Virus record (IMG/VR): IMGVR_UViG_3300017967_008125
Location: 1 to 27,831 of that record
From: a virus
DNA: 27,831 nt
Strand: one strand, 5' to 3'
Shown: in pieces, positions 5,930 to 26,074 of the stretch
Position numbering within the stretch: the first letter of the stretch is position 1
How the letters are laid out: every line of letters begins with the position of its first letter
The notes under the pieces: generated by a model
Database searches by the model: none
What the model was told of the DNA's origin: nothing
Seen by the model: only the letters and a program-made list of their open reading frames with translations
Position numbers and translations under genes: made by a program

Positions 5930-7732
5930 GTGAGTGAAAAACTAAACGCTTTTATAGCTCTATTTAACGAAAGAGTAGATGCAGATATCTCTAAGGCTCA
6001 ATCTAAAATAGAAAAGGCTCAAGAGAAATTAGATGAAGCTGAAAAGATATGGAATGAAGCTCAGGAAGGCTTAAGCGGAGATATCTTAGAAAATTTCCTT
6101 GAAGTATTTCCTGCTCCAACTGGTGGAGCACAAGGAAACGCCATAACTGGAGTTGACCCTAGATTCGTAAACCTATTAGAGTTCGGAGACCCACTCAAGA
6201 GTCAGGCACATCAATTATTCAAGCTTAGATATTCAGACCGGCGCATGATAAATGCGCAAAATTATCTACAGGAATCTGAGAAACTTAAAGAAGAAGGTGC
6301 TGAGCTAACTCTATCTAGATTGTCTAGTAAGTTAAAAGAAACTGCTCTAAGAACTCAATCTCTAGGAGGATCAAACGCATATTCGTTAATCAAGCTAATA
6401 TTTAAAGACTATGAATCATTTGAAGACGTAGCGTACAGCGAACTCAATGATGTCAGTTCTCCAAGTCAAGTAACAACAAGTCAAGAAGCTTACGAAGCTC
6501 TTAAGGAAAAAATGGAAGGGGCTTCCCAAGGCGAGGAAGTTGAGCCTAATGAGGAAGAGACCAGCCCATTAAATGAGCCAGAGTCTCTAGAAGAGGAAGT
6601 ATCTTCAGATGAAGAAATAAGCCCAATAAATCCAGCAGAGGACGTTGAACCTGAAGAAGTAACTACTGAAGTTTCTACGACAGGTCCTGAAATAGAGCAA
6701 GCTGAAGAAACTCCGTCTGAGCCAATTGTAGCCAATATAAACTTAGAACAGCCAGACATTGCTGAGGATCTTGAAGAACCTGAAGAAGTTCAAGATCAAC
6801 AACCAGCTGTGAGTCCCATTTCTGAAATATCCAGCAACCTAGTTGAAGATAACGTAACAGAAGTATCTAACGAGACTTCTAATATTAATAATACAACAAC
6901 TAACGTTACTGGAGAAAATACGGCCGTTAATAACAATACTAACGTTACTGGAGAAAATACAGCCGTTAATAACAATACTAATGTAACCTCTGAAAAACCA
7001 AAAGTCAGCAGCTTAAAGGATTTCATAAGCAAGCTAAAGGGACTTAGGGATTCACTGAATCCTGAGTCACCTCCTGGCGATGCTGAAACTTTAGAAATAG
7101 AAAAGGGTGGAAATACTCCGTCTATATCTAATATATTCGAAGGCGCAAAGTCCGTTGTAGCTGATTCATTTGAGGGCGGAGACATTATAGGGGGAATAAC
7201 AGACGTAGTAAGCAATACAACCAACTTAAACCAGGTTCTTGAATCAGGATCAGATAGTCCTATTAATAATATTGAAAGAGCACTAAGCAGACCTTTATCT
7301 GATAGACTCCCAGAAGGATTTTCAATGGATTCAGCGACAGATTTTATAGAATCTAAAACCGGCGCGAGTATTCCATCAGTTGAATCAGTAACCAGCAACA
7401 TATCTGAAACAGTTGAGAGATCGGCTAAATCCCTATCTTCTCCAATTACTAATATATCTAATATATCTGAAAGAAGTGAGTCAAATACTGAAGGCAATCA
7501 AATATCTAATATTTCTGAGGTTGATAGCTCAACTTCAACTGAGTCTAATTCAGTAAGCACTAGCACGAACACATCCAGTTCAAATACTAAAAATGAGGAA
7601 AACGTTGAAAATAATTCCTCGAGTTCTTCTATGACTAGCATGCCAACTGTTGATAATTCGGAAATTGTAAGTAGATTGAAGAAACTAGAGAGATTGTTAT
7701 CAGGTCCACTCGAAGTTAAAATAGTAGAATAA
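5930..7732 (+). CDS. Large acidic, mostly disordered virion-type protein
   Basis: The protein has 600 residues from a GTG start 12 bases after a late promoter. Residues 1-190 are helical, with a coiled coil near 15-50. Residues about 190-300 are very acidic (Glu, Pro, Ser). Residues about 315-355 are Asn/Thr-rich and contain two copies of a 13-residue repeat. Residues 480-580 are Ser/Asn/Thr-rich, and the last 20 residues are helical (KKLERLLSGPLEVKIVE). Its size and place after hub genes recall the T4 tape measure gp29 (590 residues), but a tape measure should be helical throughout, which this is not. It may be a flexible linker protein of the head or baseplate. Function unknown. Confidence 0.75.
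   Translation: MSEKLNAFIALFNERVDADISKAQSKIEKAQEKLDEAEKIWNEAQEGLSGDILENFLEVFPAPTGGAQGNAITGVDPRFVNLLEFGDPLKSQAHQLFKLRYSDRRMINAQNYLQESEKLKEEGAELTLSRLSSKLKETALRTQSLGGSNAYSLIKLIFKDYESFEDVAYSELNDVSSPSQVTTSQEAYEALKEKMEGASQGEEVEPNEEETSPLNEPESLEEEVSSDEEISPINPAEDVEPEEVTTEVSTTGPEIEQAEETPSEPIVANINLEQPDIAEDLEEPEEVQDQQPAVSPISEISSNLVEDNVTEVSNETSNINNTTTNVTGENTAVNNNTNVTGENTAVNNNTNVTSEKPKVSSLKDFISKLKGLRDSLNPESPPGDAETLEIEKGGNTPSISNIFEGAKSVVADSFEGGDIIGGITDVVSNTTNLNQVLESGSDSPINNIERALSRPLSDRLPEGFSMDSATDFIESKTGASIPSVESVTSNISETVERSAKSLSSPITNISNISERSESNTEGNQISNISEVDSSTSTESNSVSTSTNTSSSNTKNEENVENNSSSSSMTSMPTVDNSEIVSRLKKLERLLSGPLEVKIVE
6899..6976 (+). repeat. Two tandem 39-base direct repeats inside a coding region
   Basis: Units 6899-6937 and 6938-6976 differ at one base (G or A at unit position 24). 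A degraded third unit begins at 6977. Each encodes TNVTGENTAVNNN. The repeat is in frame, so copy-number change would lengthen the disordered linker without breaking the gene. Confidence 0.9.
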
Positions 7733-13056: not shown

Positions 13057-13444
13057 AAAATATCCAGATCAAGTAGTGTACGATGAGGAAAGAGGATTCT
13101 ATTCTTCAGTTCTTCCTTATGCTACAAATGTAGGGGCTCCAGCTATAAAACATGAAGATGTAGATTCATGGAAAGCAAGAGGAATCAACAAGGTTAACCA
13201 TCAATTAAAATCTAAGTTTGAGGAATTAAAGGAAGAGTTTAAGCTCATGATTGAAGAATACAGGTGGAATGAACTTGTATATTCATCTAAGTTCAACTTT
13301 GAGCCCGTGATAGGAGAGACATATCATCTATATACCGGCGATGACGGGAACGTATTTCTTTCTTTAATATCTCCAACTGAATGGAACCGAGAATGTATAG
13401 GATCATTCCAATTAAATAGTGAACATAAATGGATAAAAAAATGA
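13037..13444 (+). CDS. DUF2452 family protein
   Basis: The protein has 135 residues from a GTG start inside the end of the preceding gene (20-base overlap). The C-terminal half carries the family signature: FEPVIGETYHLY near residue 90, then FLSLISPTEW and a final beta strand SEHKWI. The N-terminal part is charged and helical, with a segment VLPYATNVGAPAI near 26-38. DUF2452 is common in Bacteroidota, where its function is unknown, so this supports the host inference. It overlaps the next gene by 4 bases (ATGA), which implies translational coupling with the glucosyltransferase. Confidence 0.8.
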   Translation: MSKKKDKKYPDQVVYDEERGFYSSVLPYATNVGAPAIKHEDVDSWKARGINKVNHQLKSKFEELKEEFKLMIEEYRWNELVYSSKFNFEPVIGETYHLYTGDDGNVFLSLISPTEWNRECIGSFQLNSEHKWIKK

Positions 13445-14454
13445 GTAAAAAAGTAGCAATAACATCAGTATTCGCAAATTTAACTTACAATGATAAGAAT
13501 CATCGAGGACTAGAAGCAATGTTCTTTAAAAAGATGATGGAAGAAAAAGGAGCAGAAGTTGACGTAGTAGGATACAAGAACAGGAACGTTAAAGACCTAG
13601 ATTTCTATATCGATTACAATGACACCGATTTCTCAGAATATGGAGCAGTTATAATTCAGTTAAGTACTGCCAACTTCTTTGGAGGAGTAATGGGAGAACA
13701 TTGTGAGAAAATATGCAATGATCTTGCTAACTTTACTGGAAAAATATACATGTTGGTAAACGATCCTAGAATTCCGCCTATTAATTATGCAAAGGTAATT
13801 AATGATAGATTTAATCTATGCGGAGACTCAGTAGAAGCTTGGGATAAGATAATCGAAGAATCAACCTATTTATTCTCAGGAAAAGACGTCTCTAAGTTTC
13901 TAGGATGGCAACCTAAGAACTGGAAACAGGTTGATTGGTTCACTTATATATTCAAGCATCGATTCACTCAGAGTGACTCTATTGATCTCACGTCACCCAC
14001 AAGCAGTGATATTGAGAAGTCATGGGATCTTGTTTATTATGGAGACCGGAGAGGAGCATTTAGAGAAAATCAAGTACGCAAGTATTTTCCAAAGGATACT
14101 AATAACCTTCTCATAGGATATAAATCAGACAAAGTTCCAGCAACCTTCATGAAAAAGTTGAAGCATTCTGATTTAATGAAGGAGCTAGATAAAGTAAAAG
14201 TCTCTCTAATTACAGGAGATGAGGAACATCTAGATAATGTAGCAACATATAGATTCTACGAAACTCTTGCTTCTAATTGCTTAGCTGCAATTCAAATTGA
14301 ATATGACCCCCAAAAGAGTCTCATACAGGATCCAGTATTACAGGAGTTACTCTATGTTGAAGATCAAGCAGATATTAAGAAATTAGTAGATGCGTGGTCC
14401 CCTGAACTGATTGATCGCCAAAAGGCAGAACTCAGAAGAATCTTTAAAATGTGA
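13441..14454 (+). CDS. bgt: DNA beta-glucosyltransferase, T4 Bgt-like
   Basis: The enzyme transfers glucose from UDP-glucose to a hydroxymethylated base in phage DNA, protecting it from host nucleases. From the ATG at 13441 (in an ATGA overlap; an ATG at 13429 is also possible) it has 337 residues, close to the 351 of T4 Bgt. Landmarks align in order: ANFFGG (T4 INFFGG); MLVNDPRIP (T4 LFTDIRLP) with the catalytic Asp at 108 (T4 D100); YYGDRRGAFRE with Arg204 and Arg208 (T4 R191, R195); ITGDEEHLDN with Asp260 (T4 D258); YRFYETLAS with Arg271 and Glu274 (T4 R269, E272). All the key active-site residues I can check are kept, so it should be active. It ends a three-gene operon closed by a terminator. 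The base it glucosylates is not known from this window. Confidence 0.88.
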   Translation: MSKKVAITSVFANLTYNDKNHRGLEAMFFKKMMEEKGAEVDVVGYKNRNVKDLDFYIDYNDTDFSEYGAVIIQLSTANFFGGVMGEHCEKICNDLANFTGKIYMLVNDPRIPPINYAKVINDRFNLCGDSVEAWDKIIEESTYLFSGKDVSKFLGWQPKNWKQVDWFTYIFKHRFTQSDSIDLTSPTSSDIEKSWDLVYYGDRRGAFRENQVRKYFPKDTNNLLIGYKSDKVPATFMKKLKHSDLMKELDKVKVSLITGDEEHLDNVATYRFYETLASNCLAAIQIEYDPQKSLIQDPVLQELLYVEDQADIKKLVDAWSPELIDRQKAELRRIFKM

Positions 14455-14542: not shown

Positions 14543-16423
14543 ATGAAGCACGTTTCTCCATATTTAGAAATGCCTAATCACGATAGATTAGGATTATACA
14601 TAAACGAAAGCATATCAGGTCTTGAACATGTTATCAATAAAGTTTTAAGCCCAGAATCCTTCAAAGAGGAAGCAGAATTCTTGAATAAAGTTGAGTCTAT
14701 GATCCCAGAGGATCTACAATTTCAACTTCATTTGAACATGATATTTGATGAATCTAAAAAGTCTCTATCTAGATATAATAGATCGATTTCAAATGGAGCA
14801 AATTCACTAATTGAAAGCGCTTCTTCTTTTCTATCAAAGGATCAAATGGATACTATTAAAGATGCATTTGAAAGAATGTCAAAAAGCTTTAGAGAATCTA
14901 GAACTAGTGATCCTATCTTTGAGCAAGCTACATTGAATATGCCAACATCTTCAGCTGATATAGCTGGGAGTATGGGAGACGATTTTAATGATGTTATGCA
15001 AAACATCGAGAGTCCAGATGATATACCAAGCGATTTAACTAATTCAGAAGGTGGAATATGGAGCCTTTTAAAGAGCTTATGGAACGGTCTAACTGAAGGT
15101 GGAAGCCCAATCGGAATCTTTCAATTTATATTAGATATAGTAGGTTTAGTCGGTGATTTCTTTGGACCAGTAGGTCTAATAGCAGACGTTATAAACGGAT
15201 TGATATATCTATATAGAGGAAAGTACGTTCTAGCTGGAATATCATTCATAGCTGCTATGATTCCTCTTGGAGGAAATGTTCTAAAAGGATTCTTACAAAC
15301 TAGCAAATCTGCTAAGCCTTTTATGAAAGCCGGCGAATTATATCTAGGAGGAGCTGGAAAAGCAGGTGCTAAAGTATCTGATGAAGCTGCGCAGGTAATT
15401 GCAGCAGCGGCCCCAGAGTCAGCTAAAGCATTAGAATACATTTCTAAAACTGGAAAAAAAGCTATGAGCGGACTATCAGGTTTCATTGGCAAGTTTTTTA
15501 GTGGTTTCCTAGCTAAATTAGTAGGATGGATTCCATTTATTGGAAAACCGCTAAAGGCGTTCTTTGAAGGAGTAGCAAATACGATTGCTTCATTCTCATC
15601 TAAAATGACTAAGTTTGCTGATGATATACCACAAATATTGAAGAAGGCTGATTTAATCAACATGAATAAATTCTTTAAGGCGGCCGGAAAAGAAGGAAGC
15701 GAGATAGTTGTGAAAGGAGGAGACTTAGTCGTAACTTCAGCTAAAGGTAAATCCTTCCAGATTCCAGCTCAGTTCTTAAAGGGAACTGATTTCATGGTTC
15801 AAAGATACGGTAAAGGAGCAGGTAAAGAGCTTCAAAAGCTTTTGAGGAAGACTGAGATGAATTCCCTTGACTTTTATAAATCCTTATCTGATGGTCTTAA
15901 ATTCTCGAGCAGGGCATATGGCAAGCCGGGCTGGATAAAGGCTGGAAATAGGGTACTTGCATCAATTCAATTCGGTAAAAAAGTTCCGCTATTCATCGGA
16001 AAAGAAGTATATAAGTGGATCACAGACGCAAAATCTTACCTAACCGATAGCGAATATGAAGCTTGGGGAAATGCCGCAATTCATGATATGATTCAAGGCA
16101 GAATAGATAAAGCACTTGAGGAAAATCCAGATGCGGTTTATGATGTTCCTTACTTAGATTCTGAAGACAATGAGGCTCGGGACGTTTTAAGAGAATATCA
16201 GCAGACTCAAGCGGATCTATTCAATTTACCAAATATCGGTGTAGTAGGATATTACGCACGTGGAGAAAAAGATAAAGTACCTGCTGAGGTAAATAAGTTC
16301 TATCAGGACTTATATCAGGGAGATACCAAACAACTAGATGCTATGAACAATATGTTTAAGCCGTTTGAGTCAGACTCTTCAAGTATGAGATACATTACCC
16401 CATACTCTCAATTTATTTCTTAA
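14543..16423 (+). CDS. Probable internal/ejected virion protein with hydrophobic pre-toxin-like core
   Basis: The protein has 626 residues and is transcribed alone behind a late promoter. The N-terminus ends in I20-N21-E22 followed by Ser, a fit to the T4 prohead-protease site. Residues 23-180 are helical and charged. Residues about 187-255 are hydrophobic and Gly-rich (LIADVINGLIYLYRGKYVLA ... MIPLGGNVLKG), very like the pre-toxin segments before the toxin domain of bacterial polymorphic toxins. More Ala/Gly-rich amphipathic helices run to about 370 (IGKFFSGFLAKLVGWIPFIG). The C-terminus is mixed and acidic. I infer a protein packaged in the head and ejected into the host, perhaps crossing or inserting in the membrane. 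No catalytic motif is recognised. Its 3' end overlaps a convergent gene by 11 bases. Confidence 0.65.
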   Translation: MKHVSPYLEMPNHDRLGLYINESISGLEHVINKVLSPESFKEEAEFLNKVESMIPEDLQFQLHLNMIFDESKKSLSRYNRSISNGANSLIESASSFLSKDQMDTIKDAFERMSKSFRESRTSDPIFEQATLNMPTSSADIAGSMGDDFNDVMQNIESPDDIPSDLTNSEGGIWSLLKSLWNGLTEGGSPIGIFQFILDIVGLVGDFFGPVGLIADVINGLIYLYRGKYVLAGISFIAAMIPLGGNVLKGFLQTSKSAKPFMKAGELYLGGAGKAGAKVSDEAAQVIAAAAPESAKALEYISKTGKKAMSGLSGFIGKFFSGFLAKLVGWIPFIGKPLKAFFEGVANTIASFSSKMTKFADDIPQILKKADLINMNKFFKAAGKEGSEIVVKGGDLVVTSAKGKSFQIPAQFLKGTDFMVQRYGKGAGKELQKLLRKTEMNSLDFYKSLSDGLKFSSRAYGKPGWIKAGNRVLASIQFGKKVPLFIGKEVYKWITDAKSYLTDSEYEAWGNAAIHDMIQGRIDKALEENPDAVYDVPYLDSEDNEARDVLREYQQTQADLFNLPNIGVVGYYARGEKDKVPAEVNKFYQDLYQGDTKQLDAMNNMFKPFESDSSSMRYITPYSQFIS

Positions 16424-16654: not shown

Positions 16655-18220
16655 TTATGCTTTAATCTTACCTAAGATATTCTGAACTGGACCAACATAT
16701 GCTCCTTCTCCAGTACAAGCTGACCAGTATGCTTTAGCAAACATTCCAAGATCTCCTCCAAGTTCGTCATCAATTACTGCGTAAACACTCATTTGAGGAT
16801 CTATTTTGGAATATGCTTGAGCAACATCCTTAGCTCCTTTAGGAGTTAGCGCTGTTACAATTAGTGCAAGAGCTAATTCTTCTTGATCAGTAGTATTTCC
16901 CCAGATTCCAGTACCTTTCTTCAAGTTTAAGATCATTTCGGCTAAACCTTCTGCACTTTGACCTTCTAGACTTCCCATAAAGGCGTTTGGATCTGCTGCA
17001 AGAGTATCATACCATCCCATTACTTCGGCTGAGGTTCCAACCCATCCTGGTCCTTCTGCACCTTGATCTACTGCCCCAGAACTAACAGCGTCTGCTGTTT
17101 TCTTAGTTGCTAAAGCTACTCCAGCTGTTGTTGCGTTAATTTTAGCAGCATTTAATATCTTGTTAGCTAAACCTGGATCTACGCTAATTAAGAAATCAGC
17201 GTGACTTGCTTTAAATATTTGATTAGATGCTCCTTGCATCTGAACTCCATCCTCAGCAATATCAAGTACTTTAACTGTAGAAACTTTACCAGCATTCTTT
17301 CCAGTTCTGGTTACATATTGAATATTTTCTCCTTTTTGGATTGCTTTACCTAAATATGTAGCTCTAGTTGAACCTGCAAGTTTGCTCCATCCTGGAATTC
17401 TAGAAAGAACTCCAGAAGTTCCTTTGAGTACTTTGCTACCTGCTTTAACAACTCCTGCTCCTACTCTAGTAGATTTAGCTGCTACACTTGCTCCCTTAAG
17501 AGCTCCTCTAAGTGCTGTTCCTCCTCCGAACGTTGCCACTGTTAAAACAACATCAGCTAATATTGTAGGAAGATTAAGACCTCTAGTTACTGATGATGAT
17601 ACTGGTTGTCTAAATGTTGCAAGAGCAGCTGTTTCAGCTCTTCCAGAAAATTCAGTTTCTAGGAAATCAACCATGTTTCCATATTTGCGATTAAAGGCCG
17701 AGGCTAATTTATCGTAGTATAACTTAGGATCAGCATTTCTTTCTGCTGCAATTGCTGCCATAGCTCCTGCAACAGCAACTACTGTTTCCTCATCAGTTCC
17801 AGCATCGCCTGGATCTCCGATTCCGATCAAGGATCCTAGGTAATTTCCAACGTAACCAATAACTCCTCCCTCATTGCCCGCTTGATACAATAAAGTTGCA
17901 GCAGTATCGAAATCAATACCTCCGAACAATACCTCATCGTTAACAATCCACATTGTGTACTTAGGATCTCTAGCATCTCCGGGCTCAAGTCTAACGTATA
18001 GCCTATCCTTAGCCTGAATTCCATAAGTGGCATTTTCTAGATTTATCTCATAGTCTTCTCCCTGCTCTAGGGTTGGAAATACTGTGGTTAAATACTCAAC
18101 TAGACCATCGTCCTCCAGATATTGTTTTAATCTAGGATCAGCGTCAGCCGAAAGAACTGCGCTCTGTTCAACGATGCTAGTTCCGTAATTCTTATAAATG
18201 TTATTTAAATTATAGATCAT
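16655..18220 (-). CDS. Large late protein with hydrophobic core and annexin-like C-terminal repeat
   Basis: The protein has 521 residues. The N-terminal 130 are mixed. A Gly/Ala-rich hydrophobic stretch spans about 214-270 (LPTILADVVLTVATFGGGTA), similar in character to the core of the 14543-16423 protein. A beta segment follows (300-345). Residues about 436-503 (GIWGNTTDQEELALALIVTA ... AYSKIDPQMSVYAVIDDELG) read like an annexin-type repeat: short Gly turn, TDQEEL helix, then an AYSK ... DDELGGDL helix pair. I infer a virion protein that meets or enters a membrane. It is the second gene of the minus-strand late operon, 15 bases after the gene before it. No enzyme motif is seen. Confidence 0.65.
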   Translation of the reverse strand: MIYNLNNIYKNYGTSIVEQSAVLSADADPRLKQYLEDDGLVEYLTTVFPTLEQGEDYEINLENATYGIQAKDRLYVRLEPGDARDPKYTMWIVNDEVLFGGIDFDTAATLLYQAGNEGGVIGYVGNYLGSLIGIGDPGDAGTDEETVVAVAGAMAAIAAERNADPKLYYDKLASAFNRKYGNMVDFLETEFSGRAETAALATFRQPVSSSVTRGLNLPTILADVVLTVATFGGGTALRGALKGASVAAKSTRVGAGVVKAGSKVLKGTSGVLSRIPGWSKLAGSTRATYLGKAIQKGENIQYVTRTGKNAGKVSTVKVLDIAEDGVQMQGASNQIFKASHADFLISVDPGLANKILNAAKINATTAGVALATKKTADAVSSGAVDQGAEGPGWVGTSAEVMGWYDTLAADPNAFMGSLEGQSAEGLAEMILNLKKGTGIWGNTTDQEELALALIVTALTPKGAKDVAQAYSKIDPQMSVYAVIDDELGGDLGMFAKAYWSACTGEGAYVGPVQNILGKIKA

Positions 18221-18235: not shown

Positions 18236-19336
18236 TTAGAATGTTCTTTGTTGGTATATATCAACTGCCGTTGGTCCAAGATCTGAAACTGCTCCGTCTC
18301 CAAGATCTGCAGGTTCTGGTTCAGGTGAACTTGCTTCAGGGAATATTCTTTCTCCACTGGTGTAATACAACATTTTTCTAATGTTTTCGGCAGTGAGCTC
18401 TGAATCTCCCCACTCATCTTCATATTCCTTAATTATTCTGTCTCTAAATTCAGAATCTTTGAAGATCTTAGTAAAGAAATCCTTATCAATTCTGTTCATT
18501 ATTTCCTGATCAGAATATAGAGGCATCGCTGCTTCACTCCATCCTTCAACCCATCCGGCAGATCCTTCATCTTCATCAGTAATCCACATAACTTTTGGAT
18601 CCTGCCAAGATACTACTCCGTTTGGTTTGTTGTCTTCTATTGCTCTTGCATCTATTGCACCATCTTCCGTGAACTCCATTAGATATAGCTTCTGATTAGT
18701 TCTCATGGTATATCTAAACTTCTTACCTACTAAAGTTTGAGTTTCTTCAGTTCCTTCAGCGTCTCCAGTTGAAAGATCGTCCTGTAAAATGTTTGCACCC
18801 TCATCGGTGTCATCAACTGCAACCGTTTGCTGGTTATCTTGAACTACATCTTGTATAATAGGTGAAGATTCTGCTCCACTGGTCGCAACGTTAGTATTTA
18901 CGAATTTAGCGCCTGCTGGAATATTAGGAAAATCAGCTCGGTTAACAATAGTTAGCTGTATCTTTTCCCTTCCGTTCTTTGCAGGTCCCTCGTCTTCCCT
19001 AGTTTGTGTGTCTTTTAAAACAGTATATATGAAAAAGTGATTCTTAAACCACTCGTCATTAATTGATTTAGTTGCACCTGGGATAGAGTTTAATATAGCA
19101 AGTTGGCTATTCATAAACTCGGTTAGAATGCTAGCTCCTTGTGCTGTAATATTTCCAGCAGCATCAACAATACTTAACATCTTAACTAATCTAATTAAGA
19201 TCTTATTGTCGTTTTGAACCTTGAATGCGATTTTTTGTCTTTTACCTGATTGAGGGTCTTTGATTACTTGTTTTCCTCTAGCTTTTGCACCAAAGGCCTC
19301 ATTCATAGAATTCCATGTACTATATGAGTTTCCCAT
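18236..19336 (-). CDS. Late protein with capsid-targeting-like N-terminus, unknown function
   Basis: I chose the ATG at 19336 (366 residues). An ATG at 19345 (369 residues) is in frame but would leave almost no leader after the promoter. The N-terminus MGNSYSTWNSMNEAFGAK contains M-N-E followed by Ala, close to the T4 prohead protease rule, and recalls the aromatic-spaced capsid-targeting peptide. Residues 25-145 are helical and basic. The centre (about 165-200) is acidic and probably disordered. Then comes a beta-rich part with MWITDEDEGSAGWVEGWSEA, and a helical acidic end. It is first in a three-gene minus-strand operon with two other large late proteins. Family unknown. Confidence 0.68.
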   Translation of the reverse strand: MGNSYSTWNSMNEAFGAKARGKQVIKDPQSGKRQKIAFKVQNDNKILIRLVKMLSIVDAAGNITAQGASILTEFMNSQLAILNSIPGATKSINDEWFKNHFFIYTVLKDTQTREDEGPAKNGREKIQLTIVNRADFPNIPAGAKFVNTNVATSGAESSPIIQDVVQDNQQTVAVDDTDEGANILQDDLSTGDAEGTEETQTLVGKKFRYTMRTNQKLYLMEFTEDGAIDARAIEDNKPNGVVSWQDPKVMWITDEDEGSAGWVEGWSEAAMPLYSDQEIMNRIDKDFFTKIFKDSEFRDRIIKEYEDEWGDSELTAENIRKMLYYTSGERIFPEASSPEPEPADLGDGAVSDLGPTAVDIYQQRTF

Positions 19337-19345
19337 CTTAGTCAT

Positions 19346-20257: not shown

Positions 20258-20433
20258 TAATTATATCGAATATAAAGAGAATAGAATATGCCTTAAAGGA
20301 ATATCGAAGAAAGGTTAATTCAACTAAATTGTTAGATGAAGTAAAATCTAGAAGGGAATACAAGAAAAAATCTCAAAAGCGAAGGGAACAAATGAAAAAG
20401 GCAAAATATAAAAGCTCTAGAGGATGGGAATAA
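20254..20433 (+). CDS. rpsU: Phage-encoded ribosomal protein bS21
   Basis: This short gene codes for 59 residues, starting at ATG 20254 in an ATGA overlap with the ATP-grasp gene and ending TAA at 20433. The protein is strongly basic. It shows the bS21 pattern: MIII strand, then IEYALKEYRRKVNSTKLLDE (compare E. coli [20 protein letters not shown]), then VKSRREYKKKSQKRREQMKK (compare [20 protein letters not shown]). Length fits Bacteroidota bS21 (about 60-65 residues). bS21 sits by the anti-Shine-Dalgarno end of 16S rRNA, and in Bacteroidota it helps mask that sequence. A phage copy could enter host ribosomes and favour late phage messages. It has no clear Shine-Dalgarno site of its own. Confidence 0.88.
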   Translation: MIIISNIKRIEYALKEYRRKVNSTKLLDEVKSRREYKKKSQKRREQMKKAKYKSSRGWE

Positions 20434-20912
20434 TGAATTTTAACGATTTCATCAATGAATCTTGGGAGGATATAGATTACTCAGCAAACAAGAACGCGGC
20501 TGGAGTTGCGATTGTTTGGCAAGATTCAGTGTTATTAGTTCATCCAACTAATGCTAGTTGGAAAAAGAACTCGTATGGTATACCCAAGGGAGGAATCGAG
20601 CCAGGAGAAGATCCTATGAGTGCCGCGATTAGAGAGTTATATGAAGAAACTGGAATTAGGATAGATTCAAGTAAGCTTGATCCAGAACCTTATGTTGCTA
20701 ATAATTATAATCAGTCTGGAAAATTGAAATGGCAGCTAGTATATTTTGTGATGAAAATAGAAGATCCTTCGGAAGTAGGAATCGAAGGTACTAAGATACC
20801 TAAGAATCAGCTTCAGCTAGAGGAAATAGATTGGGCCGGCTTTGTACCTATTAAGAGTGCTTATCCAAAAATGCATAGATCTCAACTAATTATATTAGAT
20901 AGATTAAGATAA
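20433..20912 (+). CDS. Nudix hydrolase with capsid-targeting-like N-terminus
   Basis: From the ATG at 20433 (sharing its A with the bS21 stop) it has 159 residues; an ATG at 20424 would add three. The Nudix box is perfect, GX5EX7REUXEEXGU at residues 53-75: Gly53, Glu59, Arg67-Glu68, Glu71-Glu72, Gly74. These Glu residues bind the metal that drives cleavage of a nucleoside diphosphate linked to another group. The flanking strands (GVAIVWQDSVLLVHP; LQLEEIDWAGFVP) complete the fold. The substrate cannot be told; MutT-like, ADP-ribose, Ap4A or mRNA-cap types are possible. The start MNFNDFINES closely mirrors the T4 capsid-targeting peptide MKTYQEFIAE, with I7-N8-E9 as protease site, suggesting that the enzyme may be packaged and delivered on infection. 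Confidence 0.9.
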   Translation: MNFNDFINESWEDIDYSANKNAAGVAIVWQDSVLLVHPTNASWKKNSYGIPKGGIEPGEDPMSAAIRELYEETGIRIDSSKLDPEPYVANNYNQSGKLKWQLVYFVMKIEDPSEVGIEGTKIPKNQLQLEEIDWAGFVPIKSAYPKMHRSQLIILDRLR

Positions 20913-20925: not shown

Positions 20926-23706
20926 ATGAAGCCAGATAATAAGATATATGAAGTAATGTCATCAGCAGGAGAAGTCGAAATCGACGACTTTGGCAAGACT
21001 GTCGGAATTAATGATAAGTCCGAGGGTAGATCAGTATCTGGTCTAGAATTACCTGAGTCAGGTCCAATAGGGAGCATCAGAGATTCAGCATATGCGAATG
21101 TAAATGTTCCGACTAGAGCAATCAAATATACTCAGAATGGAAATCTAGGATGCGCAGCCGCAGTATCCATCATATTCTATAGAGCAACTGGATACACTAT
21201 AGTGCCTGGAAAAAAGTTGGAGCTATCTACCAGCGGCATGTGGAATGCTCTTAACTCGTCAGATGATTGGAAGAGAATAGACAATTGGAAGAGCGATTAT
21301 AGGCCTGGTGATATCATATTAACAGCTAGAGGAAGCAGACCAGGTCACGTTGGAGTTGTGGTTGACGGAGGAAAGGTTATATCTAATTCATCAGGAGGAT
21401 TTAACGGAGATAGAAAGGGTCAAATTGAACAAAACTATAGCGTATCAGGTTGGAGATCTGTTGAGGCTAGAAACCCAGCTAAAACCGCAATATTTAGATA
21501 TATTGGGCCATTTAGAGAAAAATGGGGAGGTCCTGAAACCTCAAGAGGAGAAAGCCAAGAAAGAAGACTTAGTAGAGGCGGAACAACTGTAGTTTTTGGA
21601 GGATTAAGTTATGCCACTGCGGACTGGATGAAACAGCAATGGACAGAAGCTATCGGAGAACCTGGATCAAGCGTAATATTTGAGGAATATACTAAAGATT
21701 TAAGTCAAGTTAAGGCTGAAAATCCTGGAGCTAATATTACCAAGCTAATTGGATTCTCAGCAGGGGCTAGAAAGGTATGGCCTCACATAAATGATTCATC
21801 CATTACATTTATAGGCCTAATAGATCCCTCAACTCGACAAACCGACTGGAACAACATTGATTCAATACCAGATAAGGTTAAAATTATGTCCAATTCCTCG
21901 AACTGGGTGAGTTATAAAAACACTTATGCCGCTCTGCAGGAACTAGAGCAGTCGGGTAAATCTGAGTACGTTAAAATGGGGCACAGTAAGATTCCTCAAA
22001 ATTTCCTTAATCAATACAAAGATCAGCTACTTGATGATAACTCTCAAACTATCTCTAGATCAGACGATAGTCAAGATACTAGAGATGTATTAAACATTAA
22101 ATATGGATCTAAGGGCAAGGCAGTAGTAGATTTACAAAGAGCTCTTATATCTTCAGGATACGATCTTCCTAAATATGGCGTAGATGGAAAGTTTTATAAA
22201 GAAACACAAGGAGCACTTAAAAGATTTCAAAAGGACAATGGTTTAGCAGAAACCGGAGAACTTGATGGGAACACTAAAGATCTATTAATGTCATCTGGTG
22301 AGGTTGTTAACACTTCGACCTCAACTGGGGGCTCTAAATTCTCTATTCCTAAGAACAATAAGTTTAAGATCTTTGATAACGAGAATAAAAAAGTTGTAAT
22401 TGCAAGCTTTAAGGATGCTAATAACATAGTTATTAAAAGTAGATCTGGAAGTGAATTAGGAACAGCAACAAGAACTGGATCTAATATAACTTTAAATTAC
22501 AACGGAAAGGAAATTAATGCAACTGAAGGCTCTGAAAATCAGGTTGCTAGATCGATCTACAGGATATTTAACAGAACGAGTGGAGCTATAATATCAGGAT
22601 CAGGTTCGCCCTCTCAAGGAGGATCTACCTCGTCGTCTAGCACTGGTATACCAGATTTAGGAAGCTCTAGTGATCAGGCTGAAATTGCTAAAAAGGGAGC
22701 AATTATAGCATCTAAACTAACCGGTGATCTTGGTATAACCAAAGAACAGGCAGCAGGCGTAGTAGGTAACTTATGGGCAGAAAGCAGATTGATTCCAGAT
22801 AGAATTCAAGGATCTGGAATTAAGAGAGGTACGATAACTCAATCTGGAAGAGGTGGATATGCATGGGCACAATATACATCTCAAAATCTAAAGGATAGCT
22901 TTATTTCTCATGCAAAATCTAAAGGATTAGATATAACTAAGTATCCTGCAACTGACGATGTGAACTATTCCTATTTAGTTAATTGGATATCTAGTAGATC
23001 TAGTAAATTAAACAATTTGAAGTCTAAGAAAACTGTTAGAGATTCTGCTGAATTCTTTGTCAGAGAATTTGAAAAACCAGCTAGTATAATAAGAGGGAGT
23101 CAATCTCAACAACAAGAGACTATTAATAAGAGAACTTCATATGGAAATTTAGTCTTATCCGCAATGGGAGTCGATGTTTCCCAACCTGAGAAAAAGCTTA
23201 AAGTTTTATTTGTCGGAGATTCTCAAACTGCAGGATCGAATAGTTACGCAAATAAACTACTAAAGTCTGGAAGAGTTGACGGGAAGATATTAGCAAAAAC
23301 TGGGGCTAATACTTATGTTTTAGCAACGACTCTAAAGAAGGAACTTGATTCTGGCGAAAAGTATGATGTTATTTCCATCATGGCTGGAGGAAACGATGCT
23401 TGGAGAGATACACCAGCTGTTCCTATGCAGAATTTAGCATATATGTATCGTATATCTAAAGAATCAGGCGCACGTGTAGTTGCTATATCTAATCCTAGTA
23501 AGAAAAACGTTGAGGATCCTTCTAAATATCCTTCAAACGATCTAATTGCTAAATTTGTTGAAACCGGAGAACATAAGGCGGATAATAGAATATATGTTAA
23601 TGGAAATCTATCATATAAGTCTAACTTTGAACCTGATATGGTCCACCTAAATAATGGAGCACACAATACTATAGCCCTTAAATGGGAAAGAGACATTCTG
23701 GCATAA
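20926..23706 (+). CDS. Five-module hydrolase: Cys peptidase, GxSxG hydrolase, PG-binding, tail lysozyme, SGNH esterase
   Basis: The protein has 926 residues. Module 1 (about 60-195) looks like an NlpC/P60 or CHAP cysteine peptidase: Cys76 in NLGCAAAV, GDIIL at 128-132, His141 in RPGHVGVV, Asn154. Module 2 (about 218-370) has GFSAG with Ser278 and possible partners Asp300 and His353, as in alpha/beta hydrolases. Module 3 (about 390-455) is a PG_binding_1 domain (LQRALISSGY ... GKFYKETQGALKRFQ). After a beta segment and a Ser/Gly linker, module 4 (about 585-748) resembles phage tail lysozyme, with Glu619 in GNLWAES. Module 5 (about 758-926) is an SGNH hydrolase: GDS with Ser766, GGND with Asn823, DMVH with Asp904/His907. 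Together these could open a peptidoglycan wall and remove acyl groups. The length and late promoter suggest a virion-associated enzyme. The start MKPDNKIYEV contains an IxE site. Confidence 0.85.
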   Translation: MKPDNKIYEVMSSAGEVEIDDFGKTVGINDKSEGRSVSGLELPESGPIGSIRDSAYANVNVPTRAIKYTQNGNLGCAAAVSIIFYRATGYTIVPGKKLELSTSGMWNALNSSDDWKRIDNWKSDYRPGDIILTARGSRPGHVGVVVDGGKVISNSSGGFNGDRKGQIEQNYSVSGWRSVEARNPAKTAIFRYIGPFREKWGGPETSRGESQERRLSRGGTTVVFGGLSYATADWMKQQWTEAIGEPGSSVIFEEYTKDLSQVKAENPGANITKLIGFSAGARKVWPHINDSSITFIGLIDPSTRQTDWNNIDSIPDKVKIMSNSSNWVSYKNTYAALQELEQSGKSEYVKMGHSKIPQNFLNQYKDQLLDDNSQTISRSDDSQDTRDVLNIKYGSKGKAVVDLQRALISSGYDLPKYGVDGKFYKETQGALKRFQKDNGLAETGELDGNTKDLLMSSGEVVNTSTSTGGSKFSIPKNNKFKIFDNENKKVVIASFKDANNIVIKSRSGSELGTATRTGSNITLNYNGKEINATEGSENQVARSIYRIFNRTSGAIISGSGSPSQGGSTSSSSTGIPDLGSSSDQAEIAKKGAIIASKLTGDLGITKEQAAGVVGNLWAESRLIPDRIQGSGIKRGTITQSGRGGYAWAQYTSQNLKDSFISHAKSKGLDITKYPATDDVNYSYLVNWISSRSSKLNNLKSKKTVRDSAEFFVREFEKPASIIRGSQSQQQETINKRTSYGNLVLSAMGVDVSQPEKKLKVLFVGDSQTAGSNSYANKLLKSGRVDGKILAKTGANTYVLATTLKKELDSGEKYDVISIMAGGNDAWRDTPAVPMQNLAYMYRISKESGARVVAISNPSKKNVEDPSKYPSNDLIAKFVETGEHKADNRIYVNGNLSYKSNFEPDMVHLNNGAHNTIALKWERDILA

Positions 23707-24338: not shown

Positions 24339-24674
24339 ATGAAGGTTAAAAACTTTGCAGGATTCATGAAGACTAAACTAAATGAGTCTGAAGAAATGGA
24401 AAAATACGAAGCTGGTCTTTACGGTGCTAACCCTGAAGACGAGGACATGGCCGCTGAACTAGAAGGACTCGAAGACGAGGACATGGAAGATGAAGGCATG
24501 GAAGAGGAAGAGGTTACTCTAGAAGACCTCAAAGCTATGGTTGAAGAACTAACAGCCAGAGTTGAAGCACTTGAAGGCGGAGACGAAGAAGAAGACGAAG
24601 ACGCTGAAGGTGAAGAAGACGAAGACCTAGAAGGTGAAGAAGACCTAGAAGGCGAAGAAGAAGAAGAAGTTTAA
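24339..24674 (+). CDS. Highly acidic protein, T4 gp67-like prohead core candidate
   Basis: The protein has 111 residues, nearly half of them Glu or Asp. The N-terminus MKVKNFAGFMKTKLNESEEM resembles the T4 capsid-targeting peptide, with L14-N15-E16 followed by Ser as a prohead-protease site. A short coiled coil lies at about 60-78 (LEDLKAMVEELTARVEALEG), and the last 35 residues are an almost pure Glu/Asp tail. T4 gp67 is a small prohead core protein with a similar acidic tail, cut to peptides that stay in the head. The likeness is in composition and logic only, not alignable sequence. It is a single-gene late unit with its own strong promoter and terminator, which fits an abundant product. 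Confidence 0.75.
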   Translation: MKVKNFAGFMKTKLNESEEMEKYEAGLYGANPEDEDMAAELEGLEDEDMEDEGMEEEEVTLEDLKAMVEELTARVEALEGGDEEEDEDAEGEEDEDLEGEEDLEGEEEEEV

Positions 24675-24797: not shown

Positions 24798-25643
24798 ATG
24801 AAATATATCAAGAAAATATTTGAAGTATCCAATAACGTAAAGATACTATCAATTGATGGGTCACGAGTTCAATTGATTAATCCAGATGGAAAAGAAGTAA
24901 CTGTTGAATTTGAAGAAGATGGTCAATGGTCTGAATGGGTTGATCCTCCTTATGTAAAGGAAGTATCGATATCTGGAGATGATGGTAAATATCAGTATTC
25001 AATGGGAGCCAGCACCGATGAGCATGGGCATCATTTTGAAATTAATACTGAAGACATAGAATGGGAATCACTAGATAAAATAAGAGAAGAACAGGCGAGA
25101 AGAGCCAAACAGGCCGAGGAAGCCAGAGAAAAGAGAGAACTTGAAGCTCAACAAAAAGCTGAGCAAATTGAGCGCGAGATACTTGATCGAGGAATAACCA
25201 GACTTGATTATGAAGTAGAGAAACAGATAGAAATCCTAAATAATCAAGCTGATCATTTTAATATTCCGCAGGATTCAAATCTAACAAGTTATGCAATAGC
25301 TAAAACGAAATTCTGGGACCCAAGTGAACAGATGTACTTTAATTCATATTTTAAAATTCCTCTAAGTGGGCAGAGCTTCGAAGAATTCGAGTCTACTTTG
25401 AATATGTTTAAAGATCTTGGAATGGAAGAGGCGATGAGTGGAACATTTGCTGGTATATCGAAGGATCATGAAGTTATTCGAATACTTAAAAAAGGATCGG
25501 ACTCAAGGATAGCAGGATTTTCAGACTCAAACCTATTCACTATTAAGAATCTCGAGCCATATCTAGATCTGGCTCCATTCGGAGTAAATCTAGATTCCCT
25601 ATTTTGGACTGTATATAGATACGATAAAAATATGAAGAAATAA
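24798..25643 (+). CDS. Unknown protein with central charged coiled coil
   Basis: The protein has 281 residues. The N-terminus MKYIKKIFEVSNN contains an IxE site (I7-F8-E9) and resembles the start of the 926-residue hydrolase (KIYEV). Residues 12-90 are beta-rich, with repeated short strands around GKEVTVEFEEDGQ. Residues about 92-131 are a Glu/Arg/Lys/Gln coiled coil. The C-terminal 140 residues look globular. There is no membrane segment or enzyme motif. Its stop overlaps the start of the DUF192 gene by one base, so the two are expressed together from the late promoter at 24740. Confidence 0.72.
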   Translation: MKYIKKIFEVSNNVKILSIDGSRVQLINPDGKEVTVEFEEDGQWSEWVDPPYVKEVSISGDDGKYQYSMGASTDEHGHHFEINTEDIEWESLDKIREEQARRAKQAEEAREKRELEAQQKAEQIEREILDRGITRLDYEVEKQIEILNNQADHFNIPQDSNLTSYAIAKTKFWDPSEQMYFNSYFKIPLSGQSFEEFESTLNMFKDLGMEEAMSGTFAGISKDHEVIRILKKGSDSRIAGFSDSNLFTIKNLEPYLDLAPFGVNLDSLFWTVYRYDKNMKK

Positions 25644-26074
25644 TGCAACATCGATCAGATATTCAAATCCCTCTTTTCGAAAGCTATTGTAGACAAAATG
25701 CAATCGATGGAAAAAGAATCCAAGCCGAGGTATCTGGCATTCCACTTTCTTTAAAGGTTTCTAGCACACAAGATTCAATAACCCGGGGATATAGAGATCT
25801 TCCTGAGCCCAAGTCTGGAGAAGGAATGTTATTCGTATATGAGGATGAGACTCCACTTGAGTTCTGGATGAAGGGAGTAGACTATCCATTGGACATAATG
25901 TTTTTTGATTCTAATATGAATCTGATTGAATACATGACTATGGAGCCATGTCGAGACCTAAAAGATCAGGATCTTCCTAAATATAAATGTAAAAAACCAG
26001 CTAGATTTGCGGTTGAAGTACCTGGAGGCTGGTGTGAGAATAACATTGACCGAGACTGTACTTTAAGCTTTTAA
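25643..26074 (+). CDS. DUF192 family protein
   Basis: The protein has 143 residues. The family signature is clear: GMLFVYEDE at 61-69, FWMKGVDYPLDIMFFD at 74-89, EPC at 101-103, and ARFAVEVPGGW at 120-130. DUF192 proteins are small beta-barrel proteins of unknown function found in many bacteria, usually secreted and 130-170 residues long. This copy has no signal peptide; its N-terminus is polar. Five extra Cys could form disulfides. It overlaps the preceding gene by one base and ends 49 bases before the ligase gene. Confidence 0.85.
   Translation: MQHRSDIQIPLFESYCRQNAIDGKRIQAEVSGIPLSLKVSSTQDSITRGYRDLPEPKSGEGMLFVYEDETPLEFWMKGVDYPLDIMFFDSNMNLIEYMTMEPCRDLKDQDLPKYKCKKPARFAVEVPGGWCENNIDRDCTLSF

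Follow-up and report, generated by a model that had tools for sequence, protein, structure and literature searches.

A multi-enzyme envelope hydrolase from a module-swapping family of T4-like phages, with a possible capsid-targeting peptide

Tail lysins that combine two wall hydrolases are already known, and in phage phi29 the tail-knob protein gp13 (Morphogenesis protein 1) joins a lysozyme to an M23-type peptidase. Wall-cutting activity can also travel inside the head, as in the internal virion protein gp16 of T7, a transglycosylase of the podovirus core that is carried there and ejected. In phage T4, the otherwise unrelated internal proteins IPI, IPII, IPIII and Alt share a short N-terminal peptide ending in L/I-x-E; capsid-targeting sequences of this kind have been described previously, with gp21 as the protease that cuts after L/I-x-E, and in IPIII the first 10 residues suffice for targeting (PMC9026906). 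As reviewed, the T4 internal proteins serve anti-restriction and host takeover, not wall hydrolysis. Long chains of a different kind, the polyvalent proteins of phages and conjugative elements, combine 2-15 domains for host conflicts (PMC5512222).

Here, we describe a 926-residue protein of an uncultured phage, encoded in a stretch of 27,831 bases (hereafter, the window) that constitutes the entire source record, IMGVR_UViG_3300017967_008125 of IMG/VR. The protein contains a lysozyme domain of the Phage_lysozyme2 type, to which that of phi29 gp13 is related (weak match, E 0.005); gp13 differs in having two enzymes, no SGNH or PG-binding module, and a tail-tip location. The corresponding domain in the hub protein of Caulobacter phage Cr30 is 34% identical, but the hub lysozymes of Cr30 and T4 (gp5) share their chain with a hub fold, and none was recognized in the window protein. 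T7 gp16 resembles the role proposed below in how it works. In contrast to the polyvalent proteins, the modules identified here are mostly envelope hydrolases. The window protein shares with the T4 internal proteins a short N-terminal peptide ending in I-x-E.

Modules and maintenance of the 926-residue protein

The initial annotation had proposed an open reading frame carrying five enzyme or binding modules, and both the frame and the residues named in it were found where they had been placed. Four of the five modules (peptidase, PG_binding_1, lysozyme and SGNH) withstood closer analysis, the alpha/beta hydrolase was not confirmed, and two features had been overlooked, namely a beta-rich module at about residues 478-560 and an N-terminal KIYE/V peptide (here and below, a slash follows the glutamate). 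The features of the protein are as follows:

20926..23706, plus strand: modular envelope hydrolase, 926 aa, ATG start
20926..20952, plus strand: possible capsid-targeting propeptide MKPDNKIYE, residues 1-9, with I-x-E before Val10
21073..21525, plus strand: NlpC/P60-CHAP-like cysteine peptidase, residues ~50-200, with Cys76, His141 and Asn154
21574..22044, plus strand: orphan module with GFSAG, a possible alpha/beta fold, residues 217-373, with Ser278, Asp300 and His353
22114..22287, plus strand: PG_binding_1 domain, residues 397-454
22357..22605, plus strand: family-specific beta-rich module (LINK), residues 478-560, with predicted strands
22705..23091, plus strand: Phage_lysozyme2 domain, residues 594-722, with Glu619
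23200..23703, plus strand: SGNH/GDSL hydrolase, residues 759-926, with Ser766, GGND and Asp904-x-x-His907

A protein 98% identical to this one is encoded, in the same gene order, by a 62-kb IMG/VR contig (L001, in the relative G001). The two copies differ by approximately 63.5 synonymous and 23.5 nonsynonymous changes, giving a dN/dS of 0.10 for the whole chain, and per-module values for six modules ranged from 0.04 (GFSAG and SGNH modules) to 0.26 (beta-rich module), all indicating purifying selection. The low ratio overall and in each module therefore argues that the entire chain is a maintained protein. The 98% copy, the dN/dS and the existence of relatives with related architectures ruled out a one-off chimera or artefact.

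The peptidase scored below the curated Pfam cut-offs (CHAP, residues 75-147, E 3e-4; NLPC_P60, E 0.0016), and its relatives at loci L012, L008 and L181 passed the cut-off for CHAP. Cys76, His141 and Asn154 were invariant across the alignment with relatives, and the AlphaFold model, with pLDDT mostly 75-95 in this domain, placed Cys76 at the start of a helix and His141 and Asn154 on successive strands, as expected for such an enzyme. A divergent NlpC/P60-CHAP cysteine peptidase with a Cys-His-polar triad and a papain-like fold is thus a well-supported prediction. The PG_binding_1 match (E 4e-13) covered positions 2-57 of the 57 in the profile and exceeded its curated cut-off, as did those of Phage_lysozyme2 (E 7e-14) and, over residues 762-881, Lipase_GDSL_2 (E 1e-9). 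Glu619 was kept by every lysozyme-module sequence compared, this module being 40-48% identical in L008 and L009, and the beta-rich module was 40-43% identical in L007. For the SGNH module, a fold search returned TesA-type SGNH hydrolases with probability 1.00 but E values of only ~0.005-0.05; its GDS, GGND and DxxH (904-907) blocks aligned with a stand-alone SGNH protein of the relative G002, and its last 70 residues, including Asp904 and His907, were poorly modelled by AlphaFold. Taken as a whole, the assignment of the window protein as a multi-enzyme envelope hydrolase is well supported.

The GFSAG module presented a different picture. No Pfam family matched it even at E=10, a PDB sequence search gave two weak and unconvincing matches only, and its AlphaFold model had a pLDDT of 46 when folded alone and below 50 nearly throughout within the full chain; a fold search yielded no significant match. 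Single-sequence scans of viral contigs, bacterial genomes, phages and plasmids, which can detect close relatives only, returned nothing other than the 98% copy. An alpha/beta hydrolase would be compatible with the order in which strands and helices are predicted and with where Ser278, Asp300 and His353 lie. The motif alone was rejected as proof of such an enzyme, given its near-chance occurrence (GxSxG is expected by shuffling 1.04 times per copy of the whole chain and 0.1 times within the module). MAFFT alignments that mixed domain fragments placed those fragments wrongly, so whole or trimmed chains were aligned for the structure model; this alignment is noisy around the GFSAG module because it includes relatives that carry different modules.

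A family that exchanges hydrolases around one peptidase

Eighty related loci were gathered through the neighbouring DNA ligase gene, and 24 loci were then obtained through the family alignment. In the relatives, the peptidase upstream of the ligase was followed by M23+PGB+LINK+GH19 (L007), GH73 (L067), Phage_lysozyme2 (L009) or, with a weak profile match, GH19 (L012), and L008 and L181 had the architecture CHAP+PGB+Phage_lysozyme2. The loci from L118 to L133 encoded proteins of 252-301 aa that consist of the peptidase and at most a short tail, excepting L119, L131 and L132, which were repeats of longer forms. In the close relative G002, the SGNH enzyme is a separate protein of 282 aa directly beside a separate NlpC/P60 protein. 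An independent chain of 844 aa on contig L254 combines SGNH-like, PGB, Phage_lysozyme2, M23 and a second SGNH-like module, suggesting that multi-hydrolase chains probably arose more than once. The window chain belongs to a family of T4-like phage proteins in which the peptidase is conserved and the wall-cutting domains joined to it are exchanged. The combination of modules, which had been singled out as unusual, is indeed so, but given this family and the L254 chain, it is not unique.

A peptidase, a lysozyme and PG_binding_1 together form an endolysin-like set, and the PHROGs matches to the PG-binding part were mostly annotated as endolysin, raising the question of whether the protein acts inside the host to bring about lysis when infection ends. 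We regard this role as unlikely because the relative G012 has, in addition to its homologue, two further lysin-like genes of compact size (PGB+GH19 and PGB+amidase). Moreover, a chain of 926 aa with up to four enzymes would be unusually large for an endolysin, and no holin was recognized among the window genes scanned, small holins being easily missed.

Hydrophobic-x-E peptides in the window and in related phages

The hydrolase gene lies in a block of the window (14.5-26.1 kb) in which most genes have an N-terminal hydrophobic-x-E, largely kept in homologues that are 33-60% identical. These genes include the following:

14543..16423, plus strand: 626-aa protein, N-terminal LYINE/S, hydrophobic-x-E kept in homologues 33-41% identical
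16655..18220, minus strand: 521-aa protein, N-terminal hydrophobic-x-E, conserved beside the hydrolase in relatives
18236..19345, minus strand: 369-aa protein, N-terminal STWNSMNE/A, a conserved neighbour
20424..20912, plus strand: Nudix hydrolase directly upstream of the envelope hydrolase (Pfam NUDIX, 6e-14), strict tag FNDFINE/S
24339..24674, plus strand: 111-aa acidic protein, strict tag FAGFMKTKLNE/S
25643..26074, plus strand: DUF192 protein (Pfam, 5e-17), N-terminal PLFE/S

Several further observations were made in the window. The product of 24798-25643 is near-identical to that of L001:9869-10660 over its first ~90 residues and divergent thereafter (52% overall), and the next gene, encoding the DUF192 protein, differs from its L001 counterpart at the start and matches over the remainder; judging from these alignments, this is a spot of recombination or swapping. 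A match to a PHROG named beta-glucosyltransferase (13429-14454, 3e-15) may relate to DNA modification, a sigma-factor-like protein (PHROG 1740, 3e-11) is encoded at 1016-1648, and a 600-aa low-complexity protein of repeated NVTGENTAVNNNT units at 5930-7732 is accompanied by long spurious open reading frames on the reverse strand.

Many unrelated proteins of G002 begin with a tag of two aromatic residues three apart, then hydrophobic-x-E, then a small or polar residue, and a strict pattern of this type (the strict tag) was scored. Observed counts exceeded shuffled means in G002 (16 versus 0.8), G001 (5 versus 0.3), G012 (4 versus 0.3) and the window itself (3 versus 0.1). The strict pattern was defined after inspection of G002 and G012, so that only G019, G021, G029 and T4 count as tests; scored after it had been fixed, the tag occurred 10 times against 1.1 in G019, 18 against 1.4 in G021, and 6 against 0.2 in G029. 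Enrichment was absent in the controls, namely Flavobacterium phage immuto (1 versus 0.5), a 32-kb part of T4 (1 versus 0.2), and Cr30 plus S-H38 (0 versus 0.1), so T4, over the 32 kb tested, differs in this respect from the lineage of the window. A loose count of hydrophobic-x-E showed weak enrichment and is not our main evidence.

Pfam names within a set of 34 proteins from G002 and G021 that bear the strict tag included Gp23, CHAP, NlpC/P60, SGNH, Clp protease, RimK-like ATP-grasp, PolyA polymerase and metallopeptidase. The major capsid protein gp23 bears the strict tag in both G019 and G021 (in the latter as MKLINEQEIYDTWSPIIE/S), the core-region genes adjoining gp23 in these two relatives encode N-termini the same as or similar to the gp23 tag, and both possess an S77 prohead protease. 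The proven capsid-targeting sequence of T4 IPIII also fits the strict pattern. The S77 domain of G019 and G021 (L141 and L142) lies in a frame of ~680 residues, compared with ~210 in T4 gp21, and is perhaps fused to scaffold. In G002, a run of tagged genes on the minus strand (L105:8959-14695) encodes two long proteins without Pfam matches (566 and 594 aa), a stand-alone SGNH and a stand-alone NlpC/P60, with a tagged MoxR-type AAA ATPase and a tagged DUF2201 metallopeptidase nearby. Free-standing proteins of 265-271 aa at L204-L209 and L227-L236, with Phage_lysozyme2 and LysM in L204, have tag-like N-termini such as MIRLKSLLNE/S.

Within the hydrolase family, all 17 free-standing relatives, the window protein included, have hydrophobic-x-E within residues 1-24, against 12.4 expected by shuffling, and 15 of 5000 shuffles reached 17. 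The strict pattern was passed by four of the 17 and failed by the window protein and 12 others; the start of the window protein, MKPDNKIYE/V, retains the minimal I-x-E core and lacks the aromatic part of the lineage tag. Searches of the contigs nearest to the window, which are fragments, found no gp21, gp23 or portal (those for gp23 and portal were negative or marginal), and prohead protease and gp23 were found in the relatives G019, G021 and G026. Because the tag of the window protein is minimal and these fragmentary contigs yielded none of the three head proteins, we infer its packaging in the head from its relatives.

An N-terminal peptide of this kind might instead be a signal for a phage GroEL/GroES or another late compartment, in which case the hydrolase would not be packaged in the head. 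In T4, proteins are brought to GroEL by the gp23 N-terminus (Snyder and Tarkowski 2005, as cited in PMC10052503), and inspection by eye suggests that G002 has genes for GroEL and GroES. Against such a signal, the last part of the tag is the L/I-x-E core at which prohead proteases cut, and the tag is not enriched in immuto, which also has GroEL/GroES; we consider this explanation highly improbable.

Proposed delivery of the hydrolase at infection

The initial annotation had treated the protein as a tail protein. The same peptidase does occur on a probable hub protein in other phages, but the free-standing members bear a capsid-targeting-like peptide. At L134-L137, the peptidase forms the C-terminus of proteins of 1,030-1,119 aa, whose N-terminal part is 26% identical to an immuto protein with a C-terminal VanY, encoded shortly after the tape-measure region; the L134-L137 proteins are therefore probable tail-hub proteins, and their N-termini differ from the start of the free-standing relatives. 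A search for homologues of the hub-like protein among the genes of the window and of G001, G002, G012, G019 and G021 found none. These fusions, along with the Phage_lysozyme2 domain within the annotated baseplate hub subunit of Cr30, would favour a tail-associated lysin, located in the baseplate hub or at the tail tip like T4 gp5 or phi29 gp13, that opens the wall during tail contraction and in which the N-terminal peptide is irrelevant. However, the window gene lies among tagged genes and not among tail genes, and no hub or tail-protein domain was recognized in its product. The hydrophobic-x-E N-termini of the free-standing relatives, like those of the capsid proteins, also speak against a tail lysin, which we retain as the main alternative, though a distinctly less probable one.

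Since all free-standing relatives carry an N-terminal peptide like the capsid-targeting propeptides of T4, the head interior is a better-supported address than the tail, and the hub-fused versions of the same peptidase support virion delivery in general. Delivery with the virion, by the head or the tail route, is quite probable in our estimation. The more specific reading, in which the head of a T4-like phage would carry the window protein, as a modular envelope hydrolase, and eject it along with the DNA, is our best explanation, and we hold the balance for it to be about even. We infer where the protein is carried, its cleavage and ejection, and what each enzyme acts on, as follows. The propeptide MKPDNKIYE would direct the chain into the prohead core, where a gp21-type prohead protease would cleave after its glutamate, and the mature chain would be packaged along with the DNA, to be ejected when the phage infects a cell. 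PG_binding_1 may then anchor the ejected chain on peptidoglycan, allowing the CHAP/NlpC peptidase to cleave peptide stems and the lysozyme domain to cleave glycan strands, and the SGNH esterase may strip ester groups that block lysozyme or that sit on envelope glycans.

More tentatively, a widespread lineage of uncultured T4-like phages may load a large enzyme cargo into its heads by means of a capsid-targeting tag shared with the major capsid protein, comprising modular envelope hydrolases as well as Nudix, Clp-protease-like, ATP-grasp, PolyA-polymerase-like and metallopeptidase proteins, with the window multi-hydrolase as one member. A literature search that covered few subscription journals found no description of a hydrolase-shuffling lineage with a capsid-targeting tag; the exchange of several wall hydrolases around a single peptidase within one lineage, with such a tag apparently addressing them, thus appears to be new. 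If the tag is indeed a mark of head cargo, sequence alone would allow prediction of the internal proteins in a large group of environmental T4-like phages, and a location could be assigned to many hypothetical genes. A T4-type phage would, in that case, also be seen to use its head to deliver peptidoglycan hydrolases and esterases.
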